58,317 nucleotides of DNA, from positions 1 to 58,317 of the forward strand of contig JADZAC010000011.1 of the NCBI GenBank assembly GCA_020852835.1, given 5' to 3'. Positions 24,959 through 46,242 of the stretch are shown in pieces. This stretch comes from Flavobacteriales bacterium. Its GTDB lineage: Bacteria; Bacteroidota; Bacteroidia; Flavobacteriales_F; PHOS-HE28. The first letter of the stretch is position 1. Each line of letters starts with the position of its first letter. Both the position numbers and the translations under genes were made by a program. The notes under the pieces are model-generated. The model did no database searches. It was not told the DNA's origin and saw nothing but the letters and a program-made list of their open reading frames with translations.

Positions 24959-25951
24959 ATGCCCAAGTTGCGCTTGTTGCTTTCTTGCCTTCCGGTTGCG
25001 ATCGCATTGACCTGCCAGGCGCAGCCGGTCAATGATGATTGTGCAGAGGCGGTGGACTTGTGCGCGGGCCAGCCTGCCGCCGGGGACAACACGGGCGCCA
25101 TCAACAGCATGCCGGCCTATTGCCAGCCCGGCGCCCAAGCGGTATGGTACACGTTCACCACCAATGCTGTGGGCGGGCCGGTGAGCGTGGCCCTGGAGAA
25201 CATCAATTGCCCCGATCTGGCGGGCATGGGCAACGCGCTGAGCGCAGTGATCTTCAGCGGCGATGGAAGCTGCGACCCCAACAGTTTCCAGGTGGCTTCC
25301 CCTTGCCAGTCGGACTCGGTCCCGTTCTCGGTGACCAGCACCCAGGCGTTGGCCGCCAATACCCAGTACTGGGTGATGGTGGGGGGCATGCGCAACAATG
25401 GTGCAACCATTGCGGCCCAATGTGGGTTCAATATCTCGGTAAGCGGCCCAGGCATGGATGTGGTGAACGTGGTGTTTGATGCCGGCCCCAATGTGGTCAT
25501 CGCCGCTGGGGCCAGTACCCAGTTGCATGCAACGGGCGGTACCAGTTATGTGTGGAGCCCCACTTCCGGCCTCAGCGGCAACACCGTGCCCGACCCCGTG
25601 GCGCAGCCCAATGAAACCACGATGTACACGGTTTCCACGGTGATCAACGGCTGCACCTATGTGGACACGGTCATCGTGGAGGTGAAGCACTTGGTGGCGC
25701 CGGTGAACACCTTCACCCCCAATGGCGACGGCATCAACGACACGTGGGACGTGCCTGAACTGGCCAACTATCCGCAAGCTGAGGTAAGCATCCACGACCG
25801 CTGGGGCCAACGCGTGTTCCACAGCATCGGCTACAAGCAACCGTTTGACGGCGAAGGATTGCCTGCGGCCACCTATTACTGGTACATCCAAGTGAACGAT
25901 GTGGGGGGCAAGTCGGATCCCTATACCGGTTATGTCACCATTGTCCGCTGA
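24959..25951 (+). CDS. Secreted protein with T9SS type B (gliding-type) C-terminal domain
   Basis: T9SS cargo of 330 residues, first gene of the T9SS locus. ATG 24959 gives a signal peptide (MPKLRLLLSCLPVAIALTCQAQ is cut near residue 22) and replaces a far upstream GTG within the tRNA region. The N-terminal domain starts with NDDCAEAVDLCAG and has several Cys, a Cys-rich beta-sandwich often seen in Bacteroidota secreted proteins. An Ig-like stretch (about 180-240) follows, and then the type B CTD (about 245-330) with NTFTPNGDGINDTW, IHDRWGQRVF and the closing TYYWYIQVND, as in SprB-type adhesins. Type B cargo needs a PorP/SprF partner; the next gene is one, joined by a one-base overlap (TGATG). 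A weak -7-like TAATTTCG lies at 24931. Confidence 0.85.
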   Translation: MPKLRLLLSCLPVAIALTCQAQPVNDDCAEAVDLCAGQPAAGDNTGAINSMPAYCQPGAQAVWYTFTTNAVGGPVSVALENINCPDLAGMGNALSAVIFSGDGSCDPNSFQVASPCQSDSVPFSVTSTQALAANTQYWVMVGGMRNNGATIAAQCGFNISVSGPGMDVVNVVFDAGPNVVIAAGASTQLHATGGTSYVWSPTSGLSGNTVPDPVAQPNETTMYTVSTVINGCTYVDTVIVEVKHLVAPVNTFTPNGDGINDTWDVPELANYPQAEVSIHDRWGQRVFHSIGYKQPFDGEGLPAATYYWYIQVNDVGGKSDPYTGYVTIVR

Positions 25952-26889
25952 TGCGCTGCCTGGCCCTGCTTCTCCCTTTGCTTGCCGCATGCGGCCTGTA
26001 CGCGCAGCAAACCGCGCAGTACACCCAGAACGTGTTCAATATGTTCGCCATCAACCCGGCGGTGGCCGGCAGCAAGGACTGCATCGATGTGCGGCTGGGC
26101 TACCGCCAGCAGTGGGTGGGCTTCCCCGGTGCACCGATCACCGGGTGGGCCACGATCAACAGTGTGATCAAGCCCAAGCGCAGGACATTCCATGCAAACC
26201 GGCATGGCATCGGCTTGTTCGTGGAAGCCGACAATACGGGGCCGCTGGGCTACACCACCCTGCAGTTGGCCTACGCCTACCACCTGCAATTGAAGCGCGA
26301 TGTGTTCCTGTCCTTCGGATTGTTCGCCGGCCTGCGCCAGGAAAGGCTCTCCTTGGGCGATGTGAACGCTTCGGACAACAATGACCCGGCCTTGGCCAAC
26401 AACGGCAGTGTGCTGGTATACCCGGATGTGACGCCTGGGCTCTGGCTGTACGGCAAGTCGTCCTGGGCCGGGTTCTCCATTCAGCAGGTGGCGGGCAACA
26501 AGCTCGAGGGCATCGGCACGGATATGCGACTTGCGCGCCATTACATCGCCAGTGCAGGCCATCGCTTCCGCGTGAACCGGAACTTCAGCGTGGTGCCCAA
26601 TGGGTTGTTCAAGCTGTCGCCGGGATCCCCTTTGGCCATGGACCTCAATGTGATGCTGGAATACAGGCGCAAACTGGGTCTGGGCGTGAGCTACCGCAAT
26701 CAAGATGCCGTGGCATTCATGGTCAGAGTGCCGTTCCTGAAGTATTTCAGCATGGGCTATAGTTATGATGTCACCACCAGCAAGCTGCGCGTGGGCGGTG
26801 CCAACACCCATGAATTCATTTTGGGGATCTATCCCTGTGTACCCATGGATCCCGATAAAGCGATCGTAAGATGCCCCATTTTCGAATGA
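25951..26889 (+). CDS. PorP/SprF family type IX secretion membrane protein
   Basis: Predicted outer-membrane beta-barrel of 312 residues of the PorP/SprF family, needed for export and attachment of co-encoded type B cargo such as SprB. Family signs are the signal peptide ending Leu-Tyr-Ala-Gln, the opening motif QYTQNVFNMFAINPAVAGS, a conserved RQQWVGFPGAP, and later GYSYDVTTSKL near the C-terminus. Its start overlaps the upstream stop by one base and its own stop overlaps the start of the giant cargo gene (ATGA at 26886), so the three genes are translationally coupled. Which cargo it serves cannot be told from sequence; adjacency suggests the upstream one, the downstream one, or both. Confidence 0.9.
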   Translation: MRCLALLLPLLAACGLYAQQTAQYTQNVFNMFAINPAVAGSKDCIDVRLGYRQQWVGFPGAPITGWATINSVIKPKRRTFHANRHGIGLFVEADNTGPLGYTTLQLAYAYHLQLKRDVFLSFGLFAGLRQERLSLGDVNASDNNDPALANNGSVLVYPDVTPGLWLYGKSSWAGFSIQQVAGNKLEGIGTDMRLARHYIASAGHRFRVNRNFSVVPNGLFKLSPGSPLAMDLNVMLEYRRKLGLGVSYRNQDAVAFMVRVPFLKYFSMGYSYDVTTSKLRVGGANTHEFILGIYPCVPMDPDKAIVRCPIFE

Positions 26890-29800
26890 GCCCAGCCCGG
26901 CCCGGGCGATCAGCCATGGCCCATGTTGCCGCCTTGTTGTACGCCATGGTGCTGTATGGCAATGCTGTAGCACAACAGCAGCGTTTCTGGGTGGGCGGCA
27001 GCGGCGCATGGAGCGATCCCGCCCATTGGGCCACTACCGCCAACGGGCCCGGAGGGGCACGGCTGCCGGGCAAGGGCGATGCCGTGGTGATCGCCCCGGC
27101 CAACGGGGAGGTGGTGGTGCGGTTGGACGGGGGAACAACCATCGGCGACCTGCTTGTGGACGCCACCCGGGGCACCGTGGTGGTGGAAGGGACTACGGGC
27201 GGCCTGCGTATCGGCGGCGACTTCACCTTGCGCGGGAGCGTGGTCTGGACAAGCACATCCAACGTGGAACTGTTCCCCGGGAAGGCCTTGTGCCAAGTGG
27301 ACCTGCGCGGTATTCCCATGGCCGGCAACGTGCGGTTGAGCGGTGCGGGCACGTGGTCCTTGCTCAGCGACATGGTCCTTGGGGATCAGGCGGGCATTGA
27401 GCTTGAGAAGGGGACGTTGGTCACCAACGGCAACATGGTCCGTGCGGGCCGATTGTTATTGGCCGACCGCAGTTCCAGGCTCGTGGCGGGCACCTCCGTG
27501 GTGGTGTTGAAGGAACCGTTCCCGGCACCGTACCCCGGCTCTGTGGAAGCAGGTACCTCGAAGCTGTTGGTGAACGGGGAGCCGATGAACTGGGGGCCGG
27601 GCCGTCCGGAACAAAGCAGCGATCGGGGCTCCAACGTTTGTGCCACCGGCGTGGGGCAAACTCCCTTCATCATTGATGCACAGCTGTTGAGCAATTACAA
27701 TGGGTACGGGGTTTCATGCCATGGTGTGTGCGATGGCTCGGTACAGGTATCCGTGAGCGGGGGCGTAGGGCCCTTCACCTACAGCTGGGTGGGCGGCCCG
27801 GCCAGTGCCACATGGAGCAATACATGCCCCGGAAACCAGATCGTGATCGTTACCGATCAAGGCCAGGGGGTGAGCTGTGCCGCTACCGTGCAGGTTACCG
27901 ATCCAGCGTTGCTGAGCGTGATCTTCACCGGGGTTACGGCCCCTACGTGCGCGGATGTTTGCAATGGCACTTCCTCGGTTTTCGCCGTGGGCGGCGTTTC
28001 GGGCTACACCTACTCGTGGAACAACGGGGCGGGAACGGGCAGCAGCTTCAATCAACTGTGCGCGAGCGCCAACACCTTGCACGTCACCGATGCGAATGGT
28101 TGTGCGTTCGACACCACCTTCGGGTTTCCGGTGCAGCCGATCCAGCCCAACCTCACGGTCACCGATGCACAATGCGCCAATATCTGCGACGGTACTGCGC
28201 AAGTGGCTCCCACCGGCGGCACGGGCAGTTACACCTATAACTGGGCACCAGGCAATCCTGCCGGTGACGGCACACCGGCGGTGAGCGGTTTGTGCGCAGG
28301 CAATTATTCGGTGACCATCCAGGATGCCAATGGCTGCGATACCACGCTCGTGTTCCAGGTGATCGCACCGCAACCGATCATCCCCCAACCTTCCCATACC
28401 GATGCCAGCTGCGGCGGGTCATGTGACGGTACGGCCACGGTTTCGCCCACCGGCGGGTCGGGCAGCTACTCCTTCAGCTGGTCGCCAGCGCCTGGTGGAG
28501 GCAATGGCACGGCTTCGGTCACCGGCTTGTGCGAAGGTGTGTACAGCGTAACGATCACCGACAATGGCACGGGGTGCGATACGGTAGTGGCCATCACCAT
28601 TGCCGCACCGCCCGAAATTGTTCCCGTGCCTACCACTACCGACGTCAGCTGTGCGAACAGCTGCGATGGCACGGCAAGCGCGCCGGCCACAGGAGGCATT
28701 GGCGCGTTGACCTATACCTGGACCCCGAGCGTTGTTGGCCAAGGCACGCCGAACGCCACGCAATTGTGCCCGGGCAGCTACAGCCTCACCATTGCCGATG
28801 CAATGGGTTGCGATACCACGGTGGTGTTCCTCATTGGCGCTCCTCCGCCCATCGATCCCGCGATCACCTCCACCGATGCGAGCTGTGCGGGGGAGTGCGA
28901 CGGCACCGCCACGGTAGCGGCCACCGGTGGTACAGGCATGCTTGCCTATGATTGGCAGCCAGGCAACCCTGCCGGTGACGGCAGCCCTGCGGTCACCGGC
29001 CTTTGCGCGGGTACTTGGAGCGTGACGATCACCGATGCCAACAATTGCGATACGACCCTGCAGGTGACCATCGCCGAGCCGCTACCCCTGCAACTGGTTC
29101 CTGCCCAAACAGATGTTACCTGCAGTTCGAATTGCGACGGCACGGCCACGGCCACGGTAACCGGGGGCACAGGCCCGTATACCTACCTGTGGGCGCCGGA
29201 ACCGGGCAGTGGACAAGGCACCAACGCGGCCGGCGGTCTCTGTGCCGGTACTTGGATGCTCACGGTGACCGATGCAAACGGCTGCACCCAGGTGCACAGT
29301 TACACCATTTTGCCGGCCGTGCCCATGGATGTGGTGCTGACAGCGGGTGCGGCCAGCTGCCCGGATGTGTGTGACGGTACGGCACAGGCCGTGGTTACCG
29401 GAGGGGTGCCCACCTACACCTACTTGTGGACGCCGGTGCCGGGATCGGGCCAAGGCACTTCCAGCGCAGGCGGCTTTTGCGCCGGACCCGGTACCTTGAC
29501 GGTGACGGATGCCGTGGGTTGCGATACCACGATAGCATTCTTCATCAGTACCTCTCCGGCCATTGTGGTCAATTCCACGGTGACCGATGCCAGCTGCAAC
29601 GGCGCTTGCGATGGTTCCATCGCATTGGCACCGGCAGGAGGGAACGGCACCTACACCTTTGTGTGGACGCCGGCTTCCGCAGGGACCGGTGCCACGGCAA
29701 GCGGCTTATGCGCGGGCAACTACCAGGTAGTGGTGGCCAGTGGCGGATGTGATACCACGCTGAGCTTTACCATCAACCAACCTCCGCCACTGGACGCGGC

Positions 29801-32800
29801 CTTGTCCACAACCGATGCCTCCTGCGCAGATGCCTGCGATGGCACGGGCGTGCTTACCGGCAGTTTAGCCGGAGCAACCTTTGACTGGCAGCCGCCGCCT
29901 GGCGCTGGCCAAGGCACTGCCAGCGCCTCCGGCATGTGCCCCGGCAACTATGCGGTAAGGGTGACCGGCCCGGCAGGCTGTGACACGCTGATCGCCTTCA
30001 CGATCAATGCTCCGGCCCCCTTGGTGCCCGCCGTAGTGGTGACCGATGCCTCCTGCGGCATTGCGTGTGATGGTTCCGCATCGGCCACCGTGAGCGGTGG
30101 TACGGGCGGCGGATACAGCTACCTGTGGTCTCCTGCACCCGGAACCGGCCAAGGCACGGCCAATGCCGGACAGTTGTGCCCGGGCAACTACAGCCTGACG
30201 ATCACGGATGGGGCAGGTTGTGATACTACGGTGCAATTCACTGTATCACGTCCCCTGCCCATTGATGTATCCGCCGTGGTGGTGGCCGCCAGCTGTGCAA
30301 CCAGTTGTGACGGCAGCATTACGGCATCGGCCACCGGTGGCATGGGCGCCTACACTTGGATGTGGAGCCCGGCTCCCGGTTCGGGCCAAGGCACTCCTGC
30401 GGTTGCCGGCCTTTGCCCGGGCACATGGATGCTGACCGTGGGCGATCAGGCGGGATGCGATACCACCGTGAGCTTCACGGTTGGCGCACCGGATGGGATC
30501 GACCCGCATGGCACGTTCACTCATGAAACCTGCAACGGGCCCTGCGACGGAACGGCAACGGTGGCTCCTACGGGGGGCGCCGGCGGTTATACCTACTCGT
30601 GGTCGCCGACCCCACCGATCGGTGACGGCACCGCCTCGGTGGGCGGCTTGTGCGCAGGGCTGTGGTGCGTTACGGTGACCGATGCAGCGGGATGTGATTC
30701 CACCTGGTGTTTCACCATTCTGCCGAACACACCGATCACGGCCAGTGTGGCCACGATCGACGGCCTGTGCTGGGATGAATGCACCGGTGCCGCCACGGTG
30801 ACGGCAGCTGGCGGAGCGGGTGGATTCACCTACCAATGGTCGCCGGAGCCGGGGGCTGGCCAAGGCACCGCCACGGCCTCCGGCCTGTGCCAAGGGCCGG
30901 GCACCGTTACCGTGACCGATGCTGCCGGATGTGATACCACGCTGGGCTTCATCATCTTCAAGTATCCACCCATCCAGCCCAGTTTCACCGTGGTGCCTGA
31001 AACCTGTGCCGGTGCCTGCACCGGCGAGGCGGGCGCTTTCCCGGTGGGCGGCAATGGAACCTACTTCTATGCCTGGGCTCCGGACCCGGGAGCAGGCCAA
31101 GGCACCAATGTGGCCACCGGATTGTGTGCCGGAGTGAACTATACCCTCACGATCACCGACGGGAACGGCTGCGACACCATCATCCCCTTCTCCGTGCCTG
31201 CCTATGTACCCATCGAACCCACGCTTGCCACCACGCCCGCTTCATGTGCTGACACCTGCGACGGCACCGCCAGCATTACCGGCACTGTCGGCGGTTCAGC
31301 GCCATACACCTACTTCTGGAGCCCCGCTCCGCCCGCGGGGCAAGGCACCAATGCGGTGAGCGGCTTATGCCCCGGGAACTATCAGGTGGCGGTCACCGAT
31401 CAGGATGGTTGTGATACCGTGATCAACTTCACCATCGCGGCACCGGCTCCGATAGACCCCCAAGCGACGGTAACGGCGATCGCGTGTGCAGGCCAATGCA
31501 CCGGAGTCATCGACCTGCAGCCTCAAGGCGGCAGCGGATCGTTCAGCTATCTGTGGAGCCCGGCTCCCCCCCAAGGGCAGGGCACCGCGCAGGTGAGCCA
31601 GCTCTGCGCCGGCACGTGGACAGTGGTCATCGCCGATGGCAACGGTTGCGACACCACCGCCACATTCACCTTGGTGGATCCCTTGCCCTTGTCCGCCTCC
31701 GCAACGGTGACGGCGAGCCAGTGCGGAAACTGCAACGGCCAAGCGCAGTTGCACGTCAATGGCGGAAGCGCGCCATACAACTTCACTTGGGGGCCTCCAT
31801 TGAACCTTTCCACTGCGGACAGCCTGGTAACCTCGCTATGCGCAGGGTTGTACGGTGTAACCGTATCCGATGCCGCGGGTTGTTCGACCGTCTTGGCCGT
31901 TCCGGTGGCGGATGAAGATGGTGAAACAATAACGGTGGCCGACGGGACCGCCAGTTGCCCCGGTGTTTGCGACGGCATGGTCTCCGTTTCCTACACCTGC
32001 GCCAATGGCCCCTGCACCGTGGTCTGGTCCGACCTGCAGGGCAATACCATGGCCCAGAACGTGGACACGCTTGCCGGCCTGTGCGCGGGCAGCTACTTGG
32101 TGGCGATCACCAATGGCAACGGCTGCGTGAGCATGGATACGGTTTCTGTTTCCGACCCCGTGCCGTTCACCGCAGACATCAGCAGCACGCCGGTAAGCTG
32201 CGCCAATGCGTGTGACGGCTCGGCAACCATCGGGATCACCGGCGGCATTGGTCCGTTCAACTTTACTTGGAGCCCCGCACCCGGCGGCGGCCAAGGCACC
32301 GGGCTTGCCACCGGCCTGTGCCCGGGCATCTATGATGTCCTCGTGGATGACCAGGGCGGTTGCGATGCCACCTTCAGCGTGCTGATCACCGCGCCACCAC
32401 CTGTGGCCGTGGATGCATCGGTGACGCCGATCAGTTGTGCCGGGCAGTGCGATGGAAGCATCAGCCTGAACGCGCAAGGAGGCGCCGGAGCCTATACTTA
32501 TGCATGGACTCCGGCGCCGCCCAGCGGCCAAGGCACAGCGGTTGCAGGCAATTTGTGCCCCGGGGTGTACCAAGTGATAGTGTCCGATGCCAACGGCTGC
32601 GACACCACGCTCAACTTCACCTTGGCCGAACCGTTGCCCTTGTCGGTGAGCACGGCCGCAACGGTGAGCCATTGCGCTGTTTGCGACGGGTCTGCAACGC
32701 TGGCCATTACTGGAGGCACTGGGCCGACCACCGTACAGTGGACCCTTGCCGGTGCTCCGGTGGGCACAGGCGACACGCTCCTCAACCTCTGCGCAGGCAT

Positions 32801-35800
32801 CTACTCCGCCACGGTAACGGACGCCCACGGCTGTACGGCAACCGTGGGCGTTGCCGTGCCGGATGCCAATGCAGAAGCGCTGCAAGCCATCAACGGGCAA
32901 ACATTGTGCTCGAGTTCCTGCGACGGCGAGATAAGTGTGGCCTACACCTGCCTGGATGCCCCTTGTGCGGTTGCCTGGTTCGATGTGTTGGGCAACAGCT
33001 TGGCACAAGGACAGGACACCTTGGGCGGGTTGTGCGCGGGCACTTACCTGGTGAGCGTGATCAATGCCTCGGGATGCACCAGCATGGATACAGCTGCCGT
33101 AGTGCCCTCGCAAGTGATCGTGCCCAATTTGACCACCGTACCGGTGAGCTGCAATGGCCTCTGTGACGGCAGTGCCACCGTGGGGCCGGCGGGGGGGACG
33201 GCGCCCTATACGTTCCTCTGGAGCCCGGAACCGGGCGGCGGCCAGAATACGGCGCAAGCCACCGGTTTGTGTGCGGGCCCCTATCAGGTCACTATTGCTG
33301 ATTCCACAGGGTGTGATACCGTGGTAAACATGCTGATCACGGAGCCGCAACCGTTGGCCGTGCCTGCGCAAACGGCCCAGGTAACCTGCAACGGTGCCTG
33401 TGACGCGAGCATCGTACTATCCCCCACGGGCGGCAACGGCTTCTATTCCTATACCTGGTCGCCGGTACCGCCAAACGGCCAAGGCAGCAACGGTGCCTTC
33501 GGCCTGTGCGCGGGAACATGGACCGTGACCGTGGCCGACATCGGCGGGTGCGACACCACGCTGTCCTTCATCATCTCCGAACCCGACAGCTTGTTGGCCA
33601 CGGCCACATCAACCTTGAGCAATTGCAACGTTTGCGATGGTACGGCAAGCGTGGTGCCCACCGGGGGCACGCTGCCCTATACGATCACATGGGAACTGAA
33701 CGGAACGGTCGTTGGCACGGACAGCGCGCTCACCAACTTGTGCGCAGGACTTTACACGGTGCAGGTGGAGGACGCCAATGGCTGCACGGTGCAGCATGCC
33801 GCACCGGTGAGCGATGCAGGCGCTGAAACGCTTTCCACCACCGATTTCCTGCTGGACTGCCCGAACGATTGCGACGGTGCGGTGGACGTGTCCTTCAATT
33901 GCGCCGTTCCGGCATGCAGCATCAGCTGGTTTGATGCCTCGGGCACCGACCTCAATGAACCGGGCAACACGCTGGGCAACCTCTGTGCGGGCACCTACTT
34001 CGTGCAAGTGACCAATGGCGCCGGCTGCACGGCCATCGATACCGCACAAGTAACGGCACCGGACCCCATCCTGGCCAACCTCGGCACTGCTCCGGTTACC
34101 TGCGCCGGCCTCTGCGATGGATCGGCCGCAGTGGCGCCCACGGGTGGATCCGGCGGGTACACGTACATCTGGACCTCGGGCGCGGACACCATTTCAACCG
34201 GCACCCAGGTCGGCTCGCTTTGTGCGGGCAACTATGCCGTGGAGATCACCGACCAGGGCGGCTGCGCCGTGCTGCAGGGCGTGCTGATACTCTCCCCGGA
34301 CCCGATCACGGCCACGGCGGATGTGCAGGCCATCACCTGCAATTCCGCATGCGACGGCAGCATTGCGTTGAACGTACAAGGAGGCACCGGGGCGTTTACC
34401 TACAACTGGTCGCCTGCGCCGCCCAACGGCCAAGGAACCCCGGCCGTTTCCGGCCTGTGCAGCGGTAATTGGACCGTGACCATCGCCGATGCCAACGGTT
34501 GCGATACCACCCTTGTCATTCCGCTGGTCGAGCCGCCAGTGCTCACCGTGGACCTGACCCACACGGACAATGTGTGCTTCGACGACTGTTTGGCAACGGC
34601 ACATGTGGATGTGTCGGGGGGAACAGCGCCTTACACGATCCTGTGGACGGGCCCGGGAGGTGCCGTGATCGACCAGGACGTGCTGGATGTGTTCGGCCTG
34701 TGCGGCGGTGCATACCAAGTGGTGGTGACCGATACCAACGGGTGCTCCATGACCACCAGCTTTACCATCGGTGCCGGCGCCCCCATTGCGGCGAACTTGA
34801 GCGTGCTGGGTGAAAGCTGCAACGGGCCATGCGATGGCACGGCCGTGGCAGCACCGTCGGGAGGTACTGGAACGGGGTACAGTTATTTGTGGCAACCGGG
34901 AAATCCGGTGGGGCAAGGCACCGACCAGGCCAGTGGCCTGTGTCCGGGCGGTTGGACGCTGACGATCACCGACGACGCGGGCTGCGATTCAACCTATGCG
35001 TTCGTCATCGATCCCTTCCAGCCCATCACGCCCACAGCCACCATACAACCGATCGCATGCCATGGCGATTGCAACGCCAGCATCACCCTGGCCACCACCG
35101 GTGGTGTGGGCGCCCTCAGCTACCTATGGAGCCCGGAACCGACCGGTGGGCAGGGAACAGCCGCCATCAGCGGCTTGTGCCCGGGCACTTGGACCGTGGT
35201 GATCACCGACCTTGCGGGTTGCGACACCACGGTGTCTTATAGCCTGGCCGAACCGCCTGAACTGACCTTGGCCACGGATGCCGTGACCGACGCCAGCTGC
35301 GCCAACGCCGCCGACGGTGCGATCGCCATCACCATTGCCGGCGGAATGCCCGGCTACACGGTGGTTTGGGCTGGCCCTGCTGGCTATCAATCCACGGCCG
35401 AGGACATCAGCGGCCTAGCACCGGGCACCTACACGGTGAACGTGGCCGATACGAACAGTTGCACGGTCACGGCCGTGATCGAGGTTGCAGCCTTGGTGTC
35501 CGTGATCGCCGATGCCGGTGCCGACCAAGTGGCATGTTCCGGGGTGCCCGTATCATTGGATGCCTCCAACAGCCAAGGCAACGGCAGCTTCCTGTGGACG
35601 GATGGCCAAGGGACGCCGTTGGGAACGGACACCCTGCTCAATGTGGGCGCCATGAGCGACGGCGTACACACCTTCATCCTCACCCTTACCGACGGGCCGT
35701 GCTCCGATGCGGATACCGTAGTGGTGACCGTCCTCCCGCTGCCCATTGCCGACGCCGGTGATGACCGCACCATCTACGTGCAAGGCACCATTGTGCTGGG

Positions 35801-36248
35801 AGGTTCACCTGCGGGCCCGGTGGGCAGTACGTTCAGCTGGCAGCCGGACAGCCTGCTCAACAATGGCAGCCTGGCCAACCCTACGGCCACCGTGGGCGGC
35901 ACCACGTGGTTTGAACTCACCGTGGTTGCCCCCGATGGCTGTTCCAGCGTGGACTCCGTGTTGATCACCGTGGTGCCCGAGGTGAAGGTGCCCAGCGGGT
36001 TCACCCCCAACGGCGATGGCCATAATGATACCTGGGTCCTGGGCTTTGGCGAACTCTTTCCCAATATGGAAGTACAAGTGTTCAGCCGTTGGGGCGAACC
36101 CTTGTTCCACAGCATCGGGTACGCCGTGCCTTGGGACGGGAAGTTTGACGGCAAGGGCGTGCCCATGGGAACCTACTACTACGTGATCGACCTGCACGAC
36201 GAACGATTCCCGGAAGCATTCACCGGCCCGCTTACCGTGATCCACTGA
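26886..36248 (+). CDS. Giant SprB-repeat surface adhesin with T9SS type B domain
   Basis: Predicted cell-surface adhesin of 3120 residues, secreted by T9SS. After a signal peptide (about 1-32) a beta-rich domain opens with FWVGGSGAWSDPAHW (about 35-250). Then come 33 repeats of 75-82 residues, most with the pattern C-x3-CDG-x-A-...-GG-G-YTY-x-W-...-GQGT-...-GLC-G-...-VT-TDA-GCDTT and therefore four cysteines each. Repeats 18-29 form a higher-order array (31722-34574). Two PKD/Ig-like domains follow (about 2870-3035), and a type B CTD closes the protein (SGFTPNGDGHNDTW, FSRWGEPLFHSIGY). SprB in Flavobacterium johnsoniae, a gliding adhesin, has related repeats. ATG 26886 is chosen for its ATGA overlap with the PorP gene; ATG 26871 is an alternative. 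Confidence 0.9.
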   Translation: MSPARPGRSAMAHVAALLYAMVLYGNAVAQQQRFWVGGSGAWSDPAHWATTANGPGGARLPGKGDAVVIAPANGEVVVRLDGGTTIGDLLVDATRGTVVVEGTTGGLRIGGDFTLRGSVVWTSTSNVELFPGKALCQVDLRGIPMAGNVRLSGAGTWSLLSDMVLGDQAGIELEKGTLVTNGNMVRAGRLLLADRSSRLVAGTSVVVLKEPFPAPYPGSVEAGTSKLLVNGEPMNWGPGRPEQSSDRGSNVCATGVGQTPFIIDAQLLSNYNGYGVSCHGVCDGSVQVSVSGGVGPFTYSWVGGPASATWSNTCPGNQIVIVTDQGQGVSCAATVQVTDPALLSVIFTGVTAPTCADVCNGTSSVFAVGGVSGYTYSWNNGAGTGSSFNQLCASANTLHVTDANGCAFDTTFGFPVQPIQPNLTVTDAQCANICDGTAQVAPTGGTGSYTYNWAPGNPAGDGTPAVSGLCAGNYSVTIQDANGCDTTLVFQVIAPQPIIPQPSHTDASCGGSCDGTATVSPTGGSGSYSFSWSPAPGGGNGTASVTGLCEGVYSVTITDNGTGCDTVVAITIAAPPEIVPVPTTTDVSCANSCDGTASAPATGGIGALTYTWTPSVVGQGTPNATQLCPGSYSLTIADAMGCDTTVVFLIGAPPPIDPAITSTDASCAGECDGTATVAATGGTGMLAYDWQPGNPAGDGSPAVTGLCAGTWSVTITDANNCDTTLQVTIAEPLPLQLVPAQTDVTCSSNCDGTATATVTGGTGPYTYLWAPEPGSGQGTNAAGGLCAGTWMLTVTDANGCTQVHSYTILPAVPMDVVLTAGAASCPDVCDGTAQAVVTGGVPTYTYLWTPVPGSGQGTSSAGGFCAGPGTLTVTDAVGCDTTIAFFISTSPAIVVNSTVTDASCNGACDGSIALAPAGGNGTYTFVWTPASAGTGATASGLCAGNYQVVVASGGCDTTLSFTINQPPPLDAALSTTDASCADACDGTGVLTGSLAGATFDWQPPPGAGQGTASASGMCPGNYAVRVTGPAGCDTLIAFTINAPAPLVPAVVVTDASCGIACDGSASATVSGGTGGGYSYLWSPAPGTGQGTANAGQLCPGNYSLTITDGAGCDTTVQFTVSRPLPIDVSAVVVAASCATSCDGSITASATGGMGAYTWMWSPAPGSGQGTPAVAGLCPGTWMLTVGDQAGCDTTVSFTVGAPDGIDPHGTFTHETCNGPCDGTATVAPTGGAGGYTYSWSPTPPIGDGTASVGGLCAGLWCVTVTDAAGCDSTWCFTILPNTPITASVATIDGLCWDECTGAATVTAAGGAGGFTYQWSPEPGAGQGTATASGLCQGPGTVTVTDAAGCDTTLGFIIFKYPPIQPSFTVVPETCAGACTGEAGAFPVGGNGTYFYAWAPDPGAGQGTNVATGLCAGVNYTLTITDGNGCDTIIPFSVPAYVPIEPTLATTPASCADTCDGTASITGTVGGSAPYTYFWSPAPPAGQGTNAVSGLCPGNYQVAVTDQDGCDTVINFTIAAPAPIDPQATVTAIACAGQCTGVIDLQPQGGSGSFSYLWSPAPPQGQGTAQVSQLCAGTWTVVIADGNGCDTTATFTLVDPLPLSASATVTASQCGNCNGQAQLHVNGGSAPYNFTWGPPLNLSTADSLVTSLCAGLYGVTVSDAAGCSTVLAVPVADEDGETITVADGTASCPGVCDGMVSVSYTCANGPCTVVWSDLQGNTMAQNVDTLAGLCAGSYLVAITNGNGCVSMDTVSVSDPVPFTADISSTPVSCANACDGSATIGITGGIGPFNFTWSPAPGGGQGTGLATGLCPGIYDVLVDDQGGCDATFSVLITAPPPVAVDASVTPISCAGQCDGSISLNAQGGAGAYTYAWTPAPPSGQGTAVAGNLCPGVYQVIVSDANGCDTTLNFTLAEPLPLSVSTAATVSHCAVCDGSATLAITGGTGPTTVQWTLAGAPVGTGDTLLNLCAGIYSATVTDAHGCTATVGVAVPDANAEALQAINGQTLCSSSCDGEISVAYTCLDAPCAVAWFDVLGNSLAQGQDTLGGLCAGTYLVSVINASGCTSMDTAAVVPSQVIVPNLTTVPVSCNGLCDGSATVGPAGGTAPYTFLWSPEPGGGQNTAQATGLCAGPYQVTIADSTGCDTVVNMLITEPQPLAVPAQTAQVTCNGACDASIVLSPTGGNGFYSYTWSPVPPNGQGSNGAFGLCAGTWTVTVADIGGCDTTLSFIISEPDSLLATATSTLSNCNVCDGTASVVPTGGTLPYTITWELNGTVVGTDSALTNLCAGLYTVQVEDANGCTVQHAAPVSDAGAETLSTTDFLLDCPNDCDGAVDVSFNCAVPACSISWFDASGTDLNEPGNTLGNLCAGTYFVQVTNGAGCTAIDTAQVTAPDPILANLGTAPVTCAGLCDGSAAVAPTGGSGGYTYIWTSGADTISTGTQVGSLCAGNYAVEITDQGGCAVLQGVLILSPDPITATADVQAITCNSACDGSIALNVQGGTGAFTYNWSPAPPNGQGTPAVSGLCSGNWTVTIADANGCDTTLVIPLVEPPVLTVDLTHTDNVCFDDCLATAHVDVSGGTAPYTILWTGPGGAVIDQDVLDVFGLCGGAYQVVVTDTNGCSMTTSFTIGAGAPIAANLSVLGESCNGPCDGTAVAAPSGGTGTGYSYLWQPGNPVGQGTDQASGLCPGGWTLTITDDAGCDSTYAFVIDPFQPITPTATIQPIACHGDCNASITLATTGGVGALSYLWSPEPTGGQGTAAISGLCPGTWTVVITDLAGCDTTVSYSLAEPPELTLATDAVTDASCANAADGAIAITIAGGMPGYTVVWAGPAGYQSTAEDISGLAPGTYTVNVADTNSCTVTAVIEVAALVSVIADAGADQVACSGVPVSLDASNSQGNGSFLWTDGQGTPLGTDTLLNVGAMSDGVHTFILTLTDGPCSDADTVVVTVLPLPIADAGDDRTIYVQGTIVLGGSPAGPVGSTFSWQPDSLLNNGSLANPTATVGGTTWFELTVVAPDGCSSVDSVLITVVPEVKVPSGFTPNGDGHNDTWVLGFGELFPNMEVQVFSRWGEPLFHSIGYAVPWDGKFDGKGVPMGTYYYVIDLHDERFPEAFTGPLTVIH
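27700..35490 (+). repeat. Array of 33 SprB-type coding repeats
   Basis: Repeats occur every 230-240 bases, about 237 on average (for example cysteine-aspartate codons near 27727, 27960, 28185, 28422, 28661, 28898). Copies are diverged at DNA level but keep CDG, GG, W, GQGT, GLC and GCDT at protein level. The reading frame runs through without interruption. Confidence 0.9.
31722..34574 (+). repeat. Higher-order tandem: three exact 951-bp units inside the SprB array
   Basis: Each unit has four repeats in fixed order: a short-type repeat with C-x2-C, a repeat with an extra pair of cysteines (the YTC...PC and FNC...AC segments), and two ordinary repeats. The equivalent cysteine codons of the short-type repeats lie at 31722, 32673 and 33624, and the first cysteine of the next repeat is at 34575, so the period is exactly 951 bases (317 codons) three times. 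Confidence 0.85.
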
Positions 36249-36251
36249 TCC

Positions 36252-37169
36252 ATGGCCATCATGCGTTATCTGCCCGCCCTTCTGCTCCCCGTTGCGTGCC
36301 TGCATACGCTGCATGCGCAGCAACTGCCGCAGCTCAGCCAGTACAACAGCTTCGATTACCTCTATGATCCGGCCGTTGCAGGAAGCCGCCCCTGGTTTGA
36401 ACTGCGCAGCGCCCACCGCAATCAATGGGTGGGCATCCAGGATGCCCCGCGCACCTTTATGCTGAGTGCCACCACGCCATTGGCCGCAAACATGGGGCTG
36501 GGCGGCTTCATTTTTACCGATCATACGGGGCCATCGCGCCGAACCGGCATCCAGCTCAGCTATGCCTACCACTTGCGGATCACGGAGCGAATAAAGCTGG
36601 GCTTGGGGCTGTCATTCGGTATGCTCCAGTTCCTCATCGACGGCTCCAAGATCGAGTTCCACGATCCCGATGAGCCCTTGATGGACGACCAACTGCGCGG
36701 GGACCTGATGCCCGATGCCACCTTCGGGGCATACCTCTACGATGAAAATTGGTGGTTCGGGGCAACAGCACCCCAGTTGATGCGCAACAAGGTGGATTTC
36801 TTCACTCAGAACGACCCCACCAACAGCCTCTTGGCAGCCCACTATTACGCCATGGGAGGATACCGCTTTGCGATCGGGGAGGACATCCGGCTCGAGCCTT
36901 CATTTCTTGTCAAGTACGTAAGCCCCGTACCCCCCAAAGCGGACCTTACCGCCACGGTACGCTACCGCAACACGGTTTGGCTGGGTGCTACTTACCGTAC
37001 GGACGATGCACTGAGCTTCATGCTGGGCTATTGGTTGAAACAGACGTTCCAATTCGGCTACAGCTACGACCTGACCACCACGGCCTTGAAGAGTTACACT
37101 TCCGGAACGCATGAGGTCATGTTGGGCATCACCTTCGCCAAAGCACCCCGGAAAGCCGAAGCACCGTGA
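36252..37169 (+). CDS. PorP/SprF family type IX secretion membrane protein
   Basis: Second PorP/SprF-family barrel, 305 residues. A signal peptide ends Leu-His-Ala-Gln near residue 23, followed by the family-typical opening SQYNSFDYLYDPAVAGS, HRNQWVGIQDAPRT and, near the end, FGYSYDLTTTAL. It starts 3 bases after the stop of the SprB-like cargo, so it is the obvious partner for export of that giant protein. An ATG at 36261 is an alternative start. It differs clearly from the first and third PorP/SprF proteins here, so the copies are old paralogues rather than recent duplicates. A terminator-like hairpin follows at 37267. Confidence 0.9.
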   Translation: MAIMRYLPALLLPVACLHTLHAQQLPQLSQYNSFDYLYDPAVAGSRPWFELRSAHRNQWVGIQDAPRTFMLSATTPLAANMGLGGFIFTDHTGPSRRTGIQLSYAYHLRITERIKLGLGLSFGMLQFLIDGSKIEFHDPDEPLMDDQLRGDLMPDATFGAYLYDENWWFGATAPQLMRNKVDFFTQNDPTNSLLAAHYYAMGGYRFAIGEDIRLEPSFLVKYVSPVPPKADLTATVRYRNTVWLGATYRTDDALSFMLGYWLKQTFQFGYSYDLTTTALKSYTSGTHEVMLGITFAKAPRKAEAP

Positions 37170-37306: not shown

Positions 37307-37351
37307 ATCTTGGTCGCGAAATTGACCCGGGGCGGGGATTCCCCGCATTCG

Positions 37352-40300
37352 ATGGTGATGAGGACCTTGTTGGCTGCAATACTGCCGGTGCTGACCGTAT
37401 TTGCCCTTCCGGCGGTTGCGTGGCCGCTGCATGGATCGGCCACGGACGTGCATCTGGTTTCAGCAGGCCCGGGAACCGATGGTACGGCAACCCTTTGCTC
37501 AAATGGGCCGATGGTCTCTTTGTTCGATCATTTGGGCGGCTCGCCCGACCCGGGCGGGGTTTGGAGCGGTCCTGCCGCCCATCCCGGTTTCTTTGATCCC
37601 GCGATCGACATCCCCGGGAGCTTCACTTATACCGTGACCGGCCCGCCGGTGGCGAGCGCCACGGTAACCGTGGTGGTGAATGCTGCGCCCGATGCGGGCA
37701 CCACCGGCAACTATACCACGTGCAGCAATGGGCCTGCAGTGGACCTATTCACCTTATTGGGCGGTACGCCCGAAGCGGGCGGCGGTTGGACCTTGGGCGG
37801 GAACCCGGTCTCCAATCTGTTCACCCCGGGCAGTTCAGCGGCAGGCACCTATACCTACACGGTAAACGGTACACCGCCTTGCCCCAACGCCACCGCTGAT
37901 GTAGTGGTGAGCGTGGTCGCCGCTCCCAACGCCGGCGGGGACCGCAGCATTACGGTGTGCAGCACCGATGCACCCTTGAGCATGCTTGGGCAGTTGTTGG
38001 GCACCCCGGATGCGGGAGGAACTTGGTCTCCTGGGGGATCGGACACCTTTACGCCCGGCATATCGACCCCGGGATCGTATACCTATGTGGTGCCCGGCAC
38101 GATACCCTGCGCCAATGATACGGCAAGGCTCACCATCACCGTGCGGGATGCGCCGGATGCGGGCTCCAGCCGGGCTGTGGAAGTGTGCAGCGATGCCGCC
38201 GTGTTCAACCTGCTGGATTCATTGGGCGGGTTGCCCGACGCTGGAGGTACTTGGAGCGGTCCCGGCGGTGCCCACTCGGGATTGTTCCAGCCCAGCACCG
38301 ATCTGGGCGGTGCATATACCTATACCGTACCTGGCCAAGCTCCCTGTGTTGCGGCGGTCGCCACGGTGACGGTGACCGTGCGGCCTGCACCGGATGCAGG
38401 TACCAGCGTGAACGTAGTGAAATGCTCCAATGAGACGGCGTTTTCACTGATCTCCCAGTTGGGCGGATCCCCGGATGCAGGCGGCACTTGGACAGGACCT
38501 GGAAACGTTGCGTTCCCTTCCGGGCTGTTCACCCCCGGGGCTGATGCCCCAGGCTTGTACACCTATACCGTAGTGGGCCTTTCCCCGTGCGCAGTGGCCA
38601 CCGCCACGGTGAATATTGCTGTTTCAACAGCTGCGAATGCCGGAACCAATGGCAGCTATTCGGTGTGCAGCAGCGATGGGTCCTTCGCACTGTTCGATCA
38701 CTTGGGCGGCGCACCGCAAGTGGGCGGCACATGGACCGGCCCATCGGGGCCGGTGCCCTTAGGCACGTTTGTTCCCGGAACGAGCCTTCCGGGGGTGTAC
38801 ACCTACCTGGTGGCCGGTTCGCTTCCCTGTGCAAACGCCACGGCAACCGTCACCGTGGCCGCGGTCACTGCGGCGAATGCGGGCAATAATGGCGCGGTGA
38901 CCCTGTGCAGCACAGGAGCGGACGAAGATTTGTTCAGCCATTTGGGCGGTACTCCGGATGCCGGAGGGACATGGACCATCCCTCCACCGGGCGCGGGTAA
39001 CCTGGCTGGGGGCCTCTACCAGCCCTCCAATCCGGCACATCCGCCCGGCGGCTATATGTACACTGTAACAGGAACCGCACCCTGCCCGAACGTCTCGGCC
39101 TTGGTACAGGTGGCGGAAAACCAGGCCCCGGAGGCCGGCATGGACGCATCCACCACGCTGTGCAGTTCGAATCCCCCCTTCATCATGACCTCCCTGCTCG
39201 GGGGTGTCCCTGACCCGGGAGGCACGTGGTTGAACGCGGGCAATACTGCGGTATCGGCCACTTTTTCCCCGGGAACCACTCCGGCCGGGCAGTACCGTTA
39301 CGTGGTATCGGGCATGGCGCCTTGCATGAACGATACGGCCCGGTTGAACGTGGCGGTGAACGGTGCGCCCAAAGCGGGCACCAATGGTGCAGTGATCGTG
39401 TGCAGTGACGGTGCGACGGTGGACCTGTTCACTGAACTGGGCGGCACCCCGCAAGCGGGCGGGGCATGGACCGACCCGAACAATGGTGCGCACAGCGGGT
39501 TCTTCGTTCCCGGCATCGGCGCGCTGGAAGGAGCCTATACCTACCGGGTGGCCGGTACCAGTCCGTGTGCGGATGCCACGGCGGTAGTTGCCGTTACGCA
39601 GCACCGCCGGCCTGTGGCGGGAAGCAGTTCCACCTTGGACCTCTGTAGCACCAGCCCGGCAGTGAACCTCTTTGATCATTTGGGCGGCACGCCCGATGCC
39701 GGGGGCGTATGGACCGGCCCCGGTGGCGCAGCCAGCAACGGCGTGTTCATACCCAGCACGGCAGGCACGTTCACGTACAAGTACAAGGTGTCGGGAACGG
39801 TGCCTTGCGCTCCGGACAGTGCAACAGTGACCATCACCGTATTTTCAGCTCCCGATCCGGGCATCAGCGGGTTGTTGACCATTTGTTCCGGACAGGCCAC
39901 AGTGGACTTGTTCACCGGCCTCGGCGGCACACCGGACCTGAACGGCACCTGGAGCGAGATCACCCTGACCGGGAGGTTGAACGGCCAGTTCTTTGAACCG
40001 GGAATTCCCTTGCAGTTGCCTCCGGGTGATTATGATTTCCGCTATGTGGTGCCAACCACCGGCACCTGTGATGCGGATACGGCAACCGTCAGGGTTACCA
40101 TTGTACCAGTGCTGGATGCGGGCAGCAGCGGTTCGTTGGCCGTATGCAATACGCACACCCAATTGGACCTTTTCAACGCCTTGGGGGGCAGCCCGCAACC
40201 GGGAGGTACATGGGAAGACCTGGATGCCACAGGCCAAGTAACCGGCAAATACTTCAATGCGCAAGGCGCAGGGCCGGGCACCTACCAGTTTGAATACAAA

Positions 40301-43300
40301 TTGACCGGTGCCCTGGGGTGCTCATCGGATTCGGCGGTGGCTACCGTGCAAGTGGTTGCCGGGCCCAATGCAGGCCATGAAGGATGGGCCACATTCTGTT
40401 CCGACGGCCCGGCGGTAAGCCTCTTGCCGTACATCAGTCCGGCTGATGCAGGCGGGGCTTGGCGTCGTCCCCCGCCGGGAAACGAGGTCTTCAGCGGCAG
40501 TTACAATCCGGCCACCTTCTCCCCAGGGGACTATACCTACACGGTAAGCGCCGCCGCACCGTGCAATGCGGCAGTGGCGGTGCTGCACATCAGTGAAACC
40601 ACCGGCCCCAATTCCGGGCAATCGGCGGTGATCACGGTTTGCGCCAGTGATGCCTCCTTTGACATGACCGGCGCCTTGGGCGGAACACCGGATCCGGGCG
40701 GCCAATGGACGGACCCGTTCAGTAATGCCCACACCGGTACCTTTGTGCCGGGCGTGGATGCGCCGGGTGTCTACTTATACACGGTACCGGGTGTTTTCCC
40801 TTGCACGGACAAGACCAGTTCACTGACGGTGAACGTGAGCGCGGTGCCGGAGGCGGGCGGGGCCAGCACCAAGACGGTATGCAGCACCGCGCCGAGCTTT
40901 TTATTGATCACGGAGCTGGCCGGGGCCCAACTTGGTGGTACGTGGTATGATCCGTTCATGACGCCATACCCTACGGGCACCTTTATTCCGGGAACCAGCG
41001 CTCCGGGCATTTATACGTACCGGGTGGTCGGTGCTGCCCCGTGCGGGGTGGCGGAAGGTACGGTCACAGTATTTCAAGTAACGGCACCCAATGCAGGGCG
41101 GGACTCCAGCGTGGCCTTCTGCCAAACGGGCCAAGCCGTGCAGTTGGTCGGACTGTTGGGCGGGCCTCACGACCTCACCGGCACTTGGACAGGGCCTGCG
41201 CCCCTGAACACCTACTTCAGCGGCACGTTCCAACCGGGCAGCAATGCCCCGGGCACGTACACCTACCGGGTGAATGGGACTCCGCCGTGCCCTGCGGACA
41301 GCGGTACGGTCACCGTTTCCGTGGCGGTACCGCCCTCCGCCGGGCTCAGCCGGAGCATCAGCGTATGCTCCTCGGCCGACCTCTTCGCGATGGTGGACAG
41401 CTTGGGCGGCACGCCGGACCTGAACGGGTCATGGACGAGGGTGCCGTCAGGGATCCCCAGCAACGGGATCTTCAATCCCGGTGTTGCCGGTACGTTCACC
41501 TTCGAGTACGCCGTGCAGCCCGCAGGCGGATCACCCTGCCCGCCGGCCTTGGCCACCCTGACGATCACCGTAACGGCAGCGCCCAATGCCGGAGCCAACG
41601 GCAATCTTGCCTTGTGCTCCACAGGCGGGATCACGCCCATGTTCCCCCATTTGACCGGCGCCCCGCAGAACGGGGGCACCTGGAGCTTCAACGGTGCCGG
41701 CCACGGCAGCGGATTTGATCCCGCCCTCGATCAGCCCGGTGCCTACGCCTATGCCGTGCAGGGCACGGGCGGATGCGCGAACGATACCGCCTTTGTGAAC
41801 GTGTTGGTGAACCAGGCGCCCAATGCAGGCAGCAACGGGGTGCTGACGATCTGCGACGACACCTTGGCCGCCATTGTACTGCGCAATGTGCTCAACGGCA
41901 GCCCCAATTTGGGCGGGACATGGACCAATACCGACTCGGGGCTGCCTGCAAGCGACATCTACCTGCCCACCAATTTCAGCAGCGGCGTGCATACGTTCAC
42001 CTACACCGTGCCCGGCCAGGCACCCTGTCCGGCGGCAACTGCCCAAGCAACCATCATACAAAACGCCAAGGCCGTGGCCGGGAACAATGCCTCCACCACG
42101 CTATGCTCTGACGGGGCCAGCCTGGACATGTTCGGCTTGTTGGGCGGTGCGGCGGATCCGCTGGGCAGTTGGATCGATGCGGGAGGGAGCGTGGCCGCTT
42201 CGGTCTTCAGCCCTTCGGCCAGTGGCCCGGGAACCTTCTTGTACCGCTACATCGTGGTGGGTGATGCACCCTGCGAGAATGATACGGCTTTCGTGCAGAT
42301 CACGGTGAACCGGAAGCCCGATGCGGGGGTGAGCACCGCCCCCCAGCTATGTTCCAATGGCCCCATGGTATCGCTGCAAAACCTGCTGGGCGGTACGCCG
42401 GATCCCAACGGAAGCTGGGCGTATCATCCCACTTCCGGAACACCAGTGCCGACGGACGGCACCTTTGACCCCGGAGCGGACCCGCCTGGTGCGTATGTGT
42501 ACACCGTAGCGGGCGTTCCGCCCTGTTCCAATAGCTCGGCCACGGTTCAGATCACCTTGGTGCCCGAGCCCGATGCAGGCACCCACGGATCGATCAGTGC
42601 CTGCGTGAGCGATACCCAGGTGAGCCTGTTCGCCGGCTTGCAAGGGACGCCCCAAAGCGGGGGCACATGGCAAGACTTGAATGCCACCGGCCAGCTTGCC
42701 AACGGGGTCTTCGATGCATCGGGTGTGCTGCCCGGCACTTACCACTTCCGGTACACGGTTGCCGGCACAGGACCGTGCGCCAATGACACCGCCACGGTAG
42801 CGGTGATGGTTTCCCCCGTGTTTGACGCCGGGCAGGATGCGGATGTTTCTTTCTGCCTGAGCGAAGTGGTGCTGCTCACGCCGCATCTGGGCGGTACGCC
42901 CCAACTGGGCGGCACATGGACCGGGGTGGAAACATCGGACGGGCTGCTCAACGAGGTGCTCAACTGCTCCCAAGCCGGCGTGGGCGTCCACCATTACCGC
43001 TATGTGGTGGGCGGTTCCAGTACCTGTGCGCCGGATACGGCCGTGCTCACGGTGACTATCTTGCTTGGGCCGCAGGCAGGCAGCGGCGTGCCTGCCTCTA
43101 TTTGTTCCAGCGCTGGATCGTTCAACCTTTTCGGCCAGCTGAGCCCGCCATACGATACCAACGGCCAGTGGTATTATCCCGGCTCCGGGGGTGCCATGGC
43201 GTCGTCCTTCATTGATCCAGCATCAGACCCCGCCGGGACCTATGTGTACACGGTACCGGCCATTGGCAACTGCCCGGCGGCAACGGCCAGCGTGGAGGTG

Positions 43301-45325: not shown

Positions 45326-46242
45326 GGTACGGGCACGCGCTTCCCCTGCTGTTGGCAGCAGCGCTCCTGGGCAATTCCCAAGCCCGGGCGCAGCAGGACC
45401 CCATGTACAGCCAATACATGTTCAATACCTTGGCCTTCAACCCGGGTTACGCCGGCAGCGCGGACGTGTTCACGGCCCTGTTGCTCAGCCGCCACCAGTG
45501 GCTCGGATTCCAAGGCGCCCCGGGCACGCAAACACTCGCTTTGCACTCCCCATTGCCGGGTGACAAGCTGGCGCTGGGCGGCAACCTCATACACGATGTA
45601 ACGGGCCCTGCCAAACAAAACAGCGCTTTCATCGACCTGGCGTACCGCATCCGCACCGGCCCCGGTTCCCGGCTGGCATTCGGCCTGAGCGGCGGGATGA
45701 ACCTCTTCCAAGCCGACCTGGCGGCGTTGGAGACCGTGACGCCCGATCCACGCAACGGCAACATCAGCAGCAAACCACTGCCCAACTTCGGCTTCGGCGT
45801 GTATTGGCATACCCCGAGGCACTATGTTGGGCTGAGCGCCCCCAAACTTTTGGAAAACAAGATCGGCGGGGATGGCACGGTGGTGACCAGCCAGGAGTTC
45901 AGGCACTACTTCCTGATGGCCGGAATGGTGCTGGGCATTTCGCCTGATGTGCAGTTCAAACCGGCCGTCATGCTGCGCGTGGTGCAAGGTGCCCCATTGT
46001 CGTTGGACCTCAACGCCAACTTCCTGCTCCGCGAGCGGGTATGGTTCGGTGCCCTCTACCGCTGGGGCAATGCCATGGGCCTGATGGGCCAATTCCAAGT
46101 GAACGAGCAATTGCGGCTGGGCTACGCTTTTGACATGACGACCAACACACTGGGCGCCTACAACGCGGGCACCCATGAGCTCATGATCGGGTACGACTTC
46201 AAATTCACCAAAGGGCGCACGGTATCCCCGCGTTATTTCTGA
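45322..46242 (+). CDS. PorP/SprF family type IX secretion membrane protein
   Basis: Third PorP/SprF-family barrel, 306 residues. It opens with a signal peptide ending Ala-Arg-Ala-Gln and the canonical motif QDPMYSQYMFNTLAFNPGYAGS, then RHQWLGFQGAPGTQ, and ends with LRLGYAFDMTTNTLG and a basic tail. It is the copy closest to the classical PorP/SprF pattern. ATG 45322 overlaps the stop of the second giant gene (ATGA), and its own stop overlaps the next start (TGATG), so three genes are coupled. It is the probable partner of the second giant protein. An upstream in-frame start at 45202 would lie inside the CTD of the giant gene and was rejected. Confidence 0.92.
   Translation: MRYGHALPLLLAAALLGNSQARAQQDPMYSQYMFNTLAFNPGYAGSADVFTALLLSRHQWLGFQGAPGTQTLALHSPLPGDKLALGGNLIHDVTGPAKQNSAFIDLAYRIRTGPGSRLAFGLSGGMNLFQADLAALETVTPDPRNGNISSKPLPNFGFGVYWHTPRHYVGLSAPKLLENKIGGDGTVVTSQEFRHYFLMAGMVLGISPDVQFKPAVMLRVVQGAPLSLDLNANFLLRERVWFGALYRWGNAMGLMGQFQVNEQLRLGYAFDMTTNTLGAYNAGTHELMIGYDFKFTKGRTVSPRYF

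Follow-up and report, generated by a model that had tools for sequence, protein, structure and literature searches.

The 951-bp higher-order repeat inside the gene of a giant SprB-repeat protein, here called the adhesin after its presumed function, was found to be real, old and shared across the genus of its Flavobacteriales host. Its mechanism of origin is ordinary, and what is unusual is the constancy of the array that contains it. The super-repeat is most likely a relic of a block duplication in a T9SS type-B filament of fixed length.

The window (the whole stretch of DNA analysed, 58,317 nucleotides) carried the gene between two PorP/SprF-family genes:

25951 to 26889, + strand: upstream PorP/SprF-family protein (TIGR03519, E 3.7e-69)
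26871 to 36248, + strand: adhesin, a giant SprB-repeat, T9SS type-B putative surface protein of 3125 aa (open reading frame; Pfam SprB; TIGR04131)
27657 to 35474, + strand: array of 33 SprB repeats of 75-81 aa each (33-slot layout shared by 24 of 26 orthologues)
35985 to 36236, + strand: C-terminal T9SS type-B sorting domain (CHU_C / TIGR04131; profile matches)
36252 to 37169, + strand: downstream PorP/SprF-family outer-membrane protein (TIGR03519, E 2e-77)

A second in-frame ATG of the adhesin was present at 26916, ahead of a signal-like stretch. Pfam SprB (PF13573) matched the adhesin in 23 stretches (E 3.6e-164), as is characteristic of tandem SprB-repeat proteins, and nearly all of the 33 repeats contained four cysteines. 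The sorting domain was matched by TIGR04131 (E 2.9e-15) and also at E 1.8e-19; with this domain and an adjacent PorP/SprF carrier gene, the adhesin has the make-up of a T9SS type-B substrate with its partner. The downstream PorP/SprF gene begins 3 bases past the adhesin stop, and both this adjacency and the gene order porP - adhesin - porP were kept across the orthologous loci. There was no cysteine in the tail of the downstream protein. The tail of the upstream one had two conserved cysteines (C-x11-C; PC...CP) in every orthologous locus where it was found and read (L041-L065). In the sprB-sprF pair a PorP/SprF gene also lies directly downstream of sprB, and by this analogy the downstream protein is likely the dedicated anchor of the adhesin. 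Carriers of T9SS type-B substrates are dedicated (PMC12635249). To the right of this giant-PorP pair, a second T9SS type-B giant of 2671 aa was encoded at 37310-45325 (+ strand), with its own period of ~80 aa (LGG..P..GG.W) and 14 copies of a 50-nt core, and was followed by its own PorP/SprF gene at 45202-46242 (+ strand), giving two giant-plus-PorP pairs in a row.

A sequence-only reading had described twelve repeats in three units of four, in the same order of subtypes, with equivalent cysteine codons exactly 951 bases apart three times. The higher-order repeat as now delimited is as follows:

31185 to 34514, + strand: full higher-order repeat of 14 repeats, CD(ABCD)x3 (cross-genome classes; profile scan CDABCDABCDABCD)
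31185 to 31661, + strand: leading C and D repeats (16 and 17), a half unit ahead of unit 1 (cross-genome identity)
31662 to 32612, + strand: unit 1, 951 bp (A 31662-31895, B 31896-32138, C 32139-32375, D 32376-32612)
32613 to 33563, + strand: unit 2, 951 bp (A 32613-32846, B 32847-33089, C 33090-33326, D 33327-33563)
33564 to 34514, + strand: unit 3, 951 bp (A 33564-33797, B 33798-34040, C 34041-34277, D 34278-34514)

The three tandem ABCD units were recovered as repeats 18-29 of 33, with lengths of 78, 81, 79 and 79 aa that make up 951 bp, and the exact 951-base steps were recovered as well (first cysteines of the short CxxC repeats at 31722, 32673 and 33624; next slot at 34575). Self-alignment showed the expected excess at lag 951. 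Within residues 1610-2650, protein identity was 41.6% at a lag of 317 aa and 37.8% at 634 aa, against 21.9, 17.9 and 19.3% at lags of one, two and three repeats (79, 160 and 238 aa), and DNA identity was 54.5% at lag 951 against 39.7% at lag 237. The observed lag-4 score was reached in 4 of 100000 shuffles of the order of the 12 repeats, and in 0 of 5000 shuffles of the repeat order of the whole array. Pairwise identity between units was 45-50%.

Repeat classes were set by cross-genome identity among the repeats from 26 gene copies, which gave class A (repeats 18, 22 and 26), class B (19, 23 and 27), class C (16, 20, 24 and 28) and class D (17, 21, 25 and 29); class profiles scanned over the window read ...CDABCDABCDABCD.... 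The ordered units therefore stood, but the block of twelve did not, being in fact 14 repeats or three and a half periods, which leaves the phase of the originally duplicated block ambiguous. Similarly, the spacing of the three 951-bp steps was exact but the third step did not end on an A repeat: the slot at 34575 belongs to repeat 30, a CxxxC repeat of 81 aa outside class A, and only two of the three steps connect true A copies. The CxxC motif was not a dependable mark of A, as in many orthologues the A slot was missed by the pattern. The extra cysteine pair that defines B was invariant in 26 of 26 copies.

Orthologues of the adhesin were present in nearly all genomes of the genus, and 26 near-complete copies with 78 units were compared. 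Exactly three units were present in all 26, and every full-length copy had three B repeats 313-319 aa apart. The 33-slot alignment held for 24 copies, the exceptions being L046 (+1 repeat) and L048 (+4), both with the extra repeats outside the block; a copy of 2999 aa (L065) is close to the end of its contig and may be truncated. The nearest relative of 69 of the 78 units was the unit at the same position in another genome, which is not the pattern of concerted evolution. In a likelihood tree, units clustered by position and not by genome (7 position-label changes vs 17.4 in shuffles), and forcing the three units of the window together cost 361 log units, a lineage-specific origin being rejected by the AU test (p = 2e-60). 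Codons of residues unchanged between units were identical in a fraction of 0.51-0.54, vs 0.43 expected from codon usage, and are thus near saturation. Clustering by position, the AU test and the near-saturated codons agreed with the earlier claim that the block was duplicated long ago and its units have since diverged, and as judged from these comparisons the triplication is older than the genus. Exceptions to clustering by position were all units of L061 and unit 1 of L049 and L058, which look like conversion between units.

The mechanism of block duplication was shown within the genus by recent blocks in two orthologues, of four repeats at 78% identity in L048 and of two repeats at 98% identity in L046. 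In repeats 9-14 of L046, two-repeat blocks were homogenised recently (98%, lag 155 aa), with the slot count there as in relatives.

The adhesin is probably a length-fixed T9SS type-B surface filament, with a super-repeat that arose by old block duplication and was kept via the total number of repeats and the A-B pair. The T9SS would export it to the surface, where its 33 SprB domains, small beta-sandwiches that with few exceptions are each pinned by two disulfides, would form a string, and the adjacent PorP/SprF protein would hold the filament at the outer membrane. The 951-bp super-repeat would date from before the radiation of the genus, when a block of several repeats was duplicated in tandem, and its units would later have diverged by point mutation, with conversion between them only occasional. 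Two things would have preserved the super-repeat: selection on the total number of repeats, which fixes the reach, and the conservation of A-B as a two-domain element. No function as a module is required of the four-domain unit itself.

Protein lengths were compared in 13 well-assembled genomes, with three proteins from each. Length was 3120-3226 aa for the adhesin (CV 0.9%), 2567-3099 aa for the neighbouring giant at 37310-45325 (CV 4.8%), and 2473-4186 aa for the SprB-repeat paralogue of the own-genome type (contig C53; CV 15.5%), the three longest paralogues (G008, G023 and G026) being from one subclade. Length of the adhesin differed in variance from that of the other two proteins (Levene tests, p 0.009 and 0.006, with related species treated as independent). 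The number of adhesin repeats was constant at protein identities down to 48%, while in these genomes the paralogue differed by some 20 repeats. The low CV of the adhesin relative to those of the paralogue and the neighbour is taken to reflect selection on filament reach, through the total number of repeats; against a fixed length, the array did change outside the block in L046 and L048. The paralogue in the genome of the window (L038, G000 contig C53) had 3138 aa and mostly two cysteines per repeat, and its orthologues ranged from 2473 to 4279 aa.

Alternatively, the super-period could have been left by a block duplication and be under no selection, with its constancy in the genus due to chance or phylogenetic inertia. 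SprB arrays commonly have super-periods, and of widely differing size, in agreement with such a neutral origin: among 54 arrays selected by PF13573, the general model for SprB, peaks occurred at 2, 3, 4, 5, 6, 7 and 9 repeats, the commonest being 7 (six arrays, mainly of family f53), while 4 occurred once. Multi-repeat block duplication is, from these sequences, a general habit of SprB arrays, and the recent two- and four-repeat duplications in relatives point the same way. Conversely, the constancy of the repeat number down to 48% identity beside a paralogue that varied so widely, and the invariance of the B cysteines in 26 copies, argue against neutrality, and this explanation is considered rather unlikely. 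A general preference for period 4, suggested by a set of arrays chosen with the B profile, was absent from the 54 arrays, and no period of 4 was seen when looked for in the SprB paralogue of the same genome. The giants of family f53 (L154, L155, L163, L167 and L168) had a very strong seven-segment super-period (z up to 21.6), which exceeded that of the adhesin.

The exact retention of 951 bp had previously been taken as a sign of structural selection for four-domain super-modules, with A-B-C-D folding or binding as a single rigid unit whose length and number are kept by selection. That argument was not sustained. Unit length ranged from 314 to 320 aa across the 26 orthologues, with exactly 317 aa in 39 of 78 units. 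The modal-length share of single repeats was 0.83 inside the block and 0.80 outside it (Mann-Whitney p 0.73), so that unit length was not better conserved than that of single repeats elsewhere, and a special length constraint on the block was ruled out. The exact 951 bp is explained by the tendency of SprB repeats in general to keep their length. AlphaFold2 global confidence gave no sign of a special four-domain body, being similar for repeats 17-23 (pLDDT 88.5, pTM 0.45) and for the ordinary repeats 10-14 (pLDDT 89.1, pTM 0.47), values of pTM at which inter-domain geometry is unreadable. Three units were retained in all genus copies, B repeats were also four repeats apart in L098 of family f31, and a lag-4 peak occurred in five families, although in a set largely chosen for B-like repeats; these results favour a selected unit. 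With period 4 found once and period 7 six times in arrays not chosen for B, and with A-B pairs of families f5 and f33 placed about 5, 7 or 9 repeats apart, such a unit is doubtful. Selection appears to act at two other scales, on the A-B pair below the four-repeat unit and on the full array length above it.

The B profile had strong matches in families f31, f33, f5, f19 and f23. The motif CxxCxG was present in 24 of 33 repeats directly before B and in 23 of 757 other repeats (Fisher p 1e-25, which overstates independence, as the loci were picked for matching B and several are interrelated). The A-B pair, which recurs in other families, is thus by sequence an old and conserved two-domain element. 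Giants of families f31 (L098), f33 (L099, L102, L104 and L105) and f5 (L100 and L106-L110) resembled the adhesin in having a CxxC repeat followed by a repeat with the extra cysteine pair, and differed from it in being longer (about 3900-4740 aa) and in having no clear ABCD order beyond A-B; outside the genus, class calls were weak except for A and B, and no ABCD order is claimed there. The pair recurred in L098 (4643 aa) as it does in the adhesin, with eight B repeats 297-312 aa (about 307 aa) apart, equivalent to four repeats, whereas the spacing differed from that of the adhesin in f5 and f33. It is possible, but improbable, that A-B is a distinct two-domain element, serving as a joint or a binding head and carrying an extra disulfide of its own, regularly placed on a length-selected filament, and that four-repeat spacing arose separately in the genus and in f31 because spacing matters.

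All four cysteines were present in 826 of 832 repeat instances. Exactly C2 and C3 were missing in the other 6 (several of them supplied by L061 and L046, and thus not six independent lineages), and one cysteine alone was missing in 0. The paired loss (6 of 6) indicates that C2 and C3 of each repeat are joined by a disulfide, with C1-C4 as the probable other pair by exclusion. An extra pair in repeat 13 (residues 1266 and 1280, at about 30666 and 30708 in the window) was confined to the window and four closely related species, the same five species sharing both cysteines, which were gained or lost together.

Recent lineage-specific amplification or misassembly of the window, for which no specific support was found beyond tandem repeats being a usual site of assembly faults, is ruled out for practical purposes by units too diverged (45-50% identity) for assembly collapse or a recent event, by the presence of these three units in some 30 further copies that were assembled independently, several of the assemblies having one or a few contigs, and by the AU test.

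Repeat adhesins are commonly expected to alter their length readily, and the adhesin was nearly constant in number and order of repeats at about 50% protein identity across the genus. Together with its variable sister protein of the same repeat kind, it offers a natural control for what sets the length of T9SS filaments. The coupled loss of cysteines provides a disulfide map for a repeat that has received little study, and relatives in other families can be sought through the A-B element.

The gliding adhesin SprB of Flavobacterium johnsoniae (6497 aa; PMC9870892) was similar to the adhesin in its SprB repeats and its T9SS type-B C-terminal signal. The adhesin differed in being half as long and in having four cysteines in most repeats. 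For gliding, SprF needs a C-x-C in its periplasmic tail (PMC12635249). This motif was absent from both PorP/SprF neighbours and from all ten PorP/SprF tails read in the genome, and assignment as a gliding adhesin by the SprF tail was rejected. GldK was present over the cut-off, and a GldJ-like protein scored below it. A gliding role of the adhesin is not supported by these comparisons. The cysteines in the tail of the upstream PorP, unlike the C-x-C of SprF, are a candidate for disulfide attachment to a gliding or T9SS ring.

The closest solved structure was that of Grappling hook protein A (GhpA) of Aureispira sp. CCB-QB1 (5898 aa; PDB 9flp, 9fly and others), with E 8.7e-18 by Foldseek for the fold and E 3.8e-38 by profile over ten significant stretches. 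GhpA has homologous repeat domains and a similar C-terminal region; identity was about 18-19%, and no B-type extra cysteine pair was seen in the displayed part of the alignment. At the level of sequence and fold, the likeness is one of the repeat fold, and does not imply hook assembly or a grappling role.

A search of the open-access literature found nothing on higher-order repeats in adhesins. In higher-order repeats of satellite DNA, blocks of diverged monomers recur in the same order. The adhesin block is alike in its ordered, diverged monomers, and unlike satellite DNA it had no strong homogenisation, its units are older than the genus, and its copy number is fixed at three.
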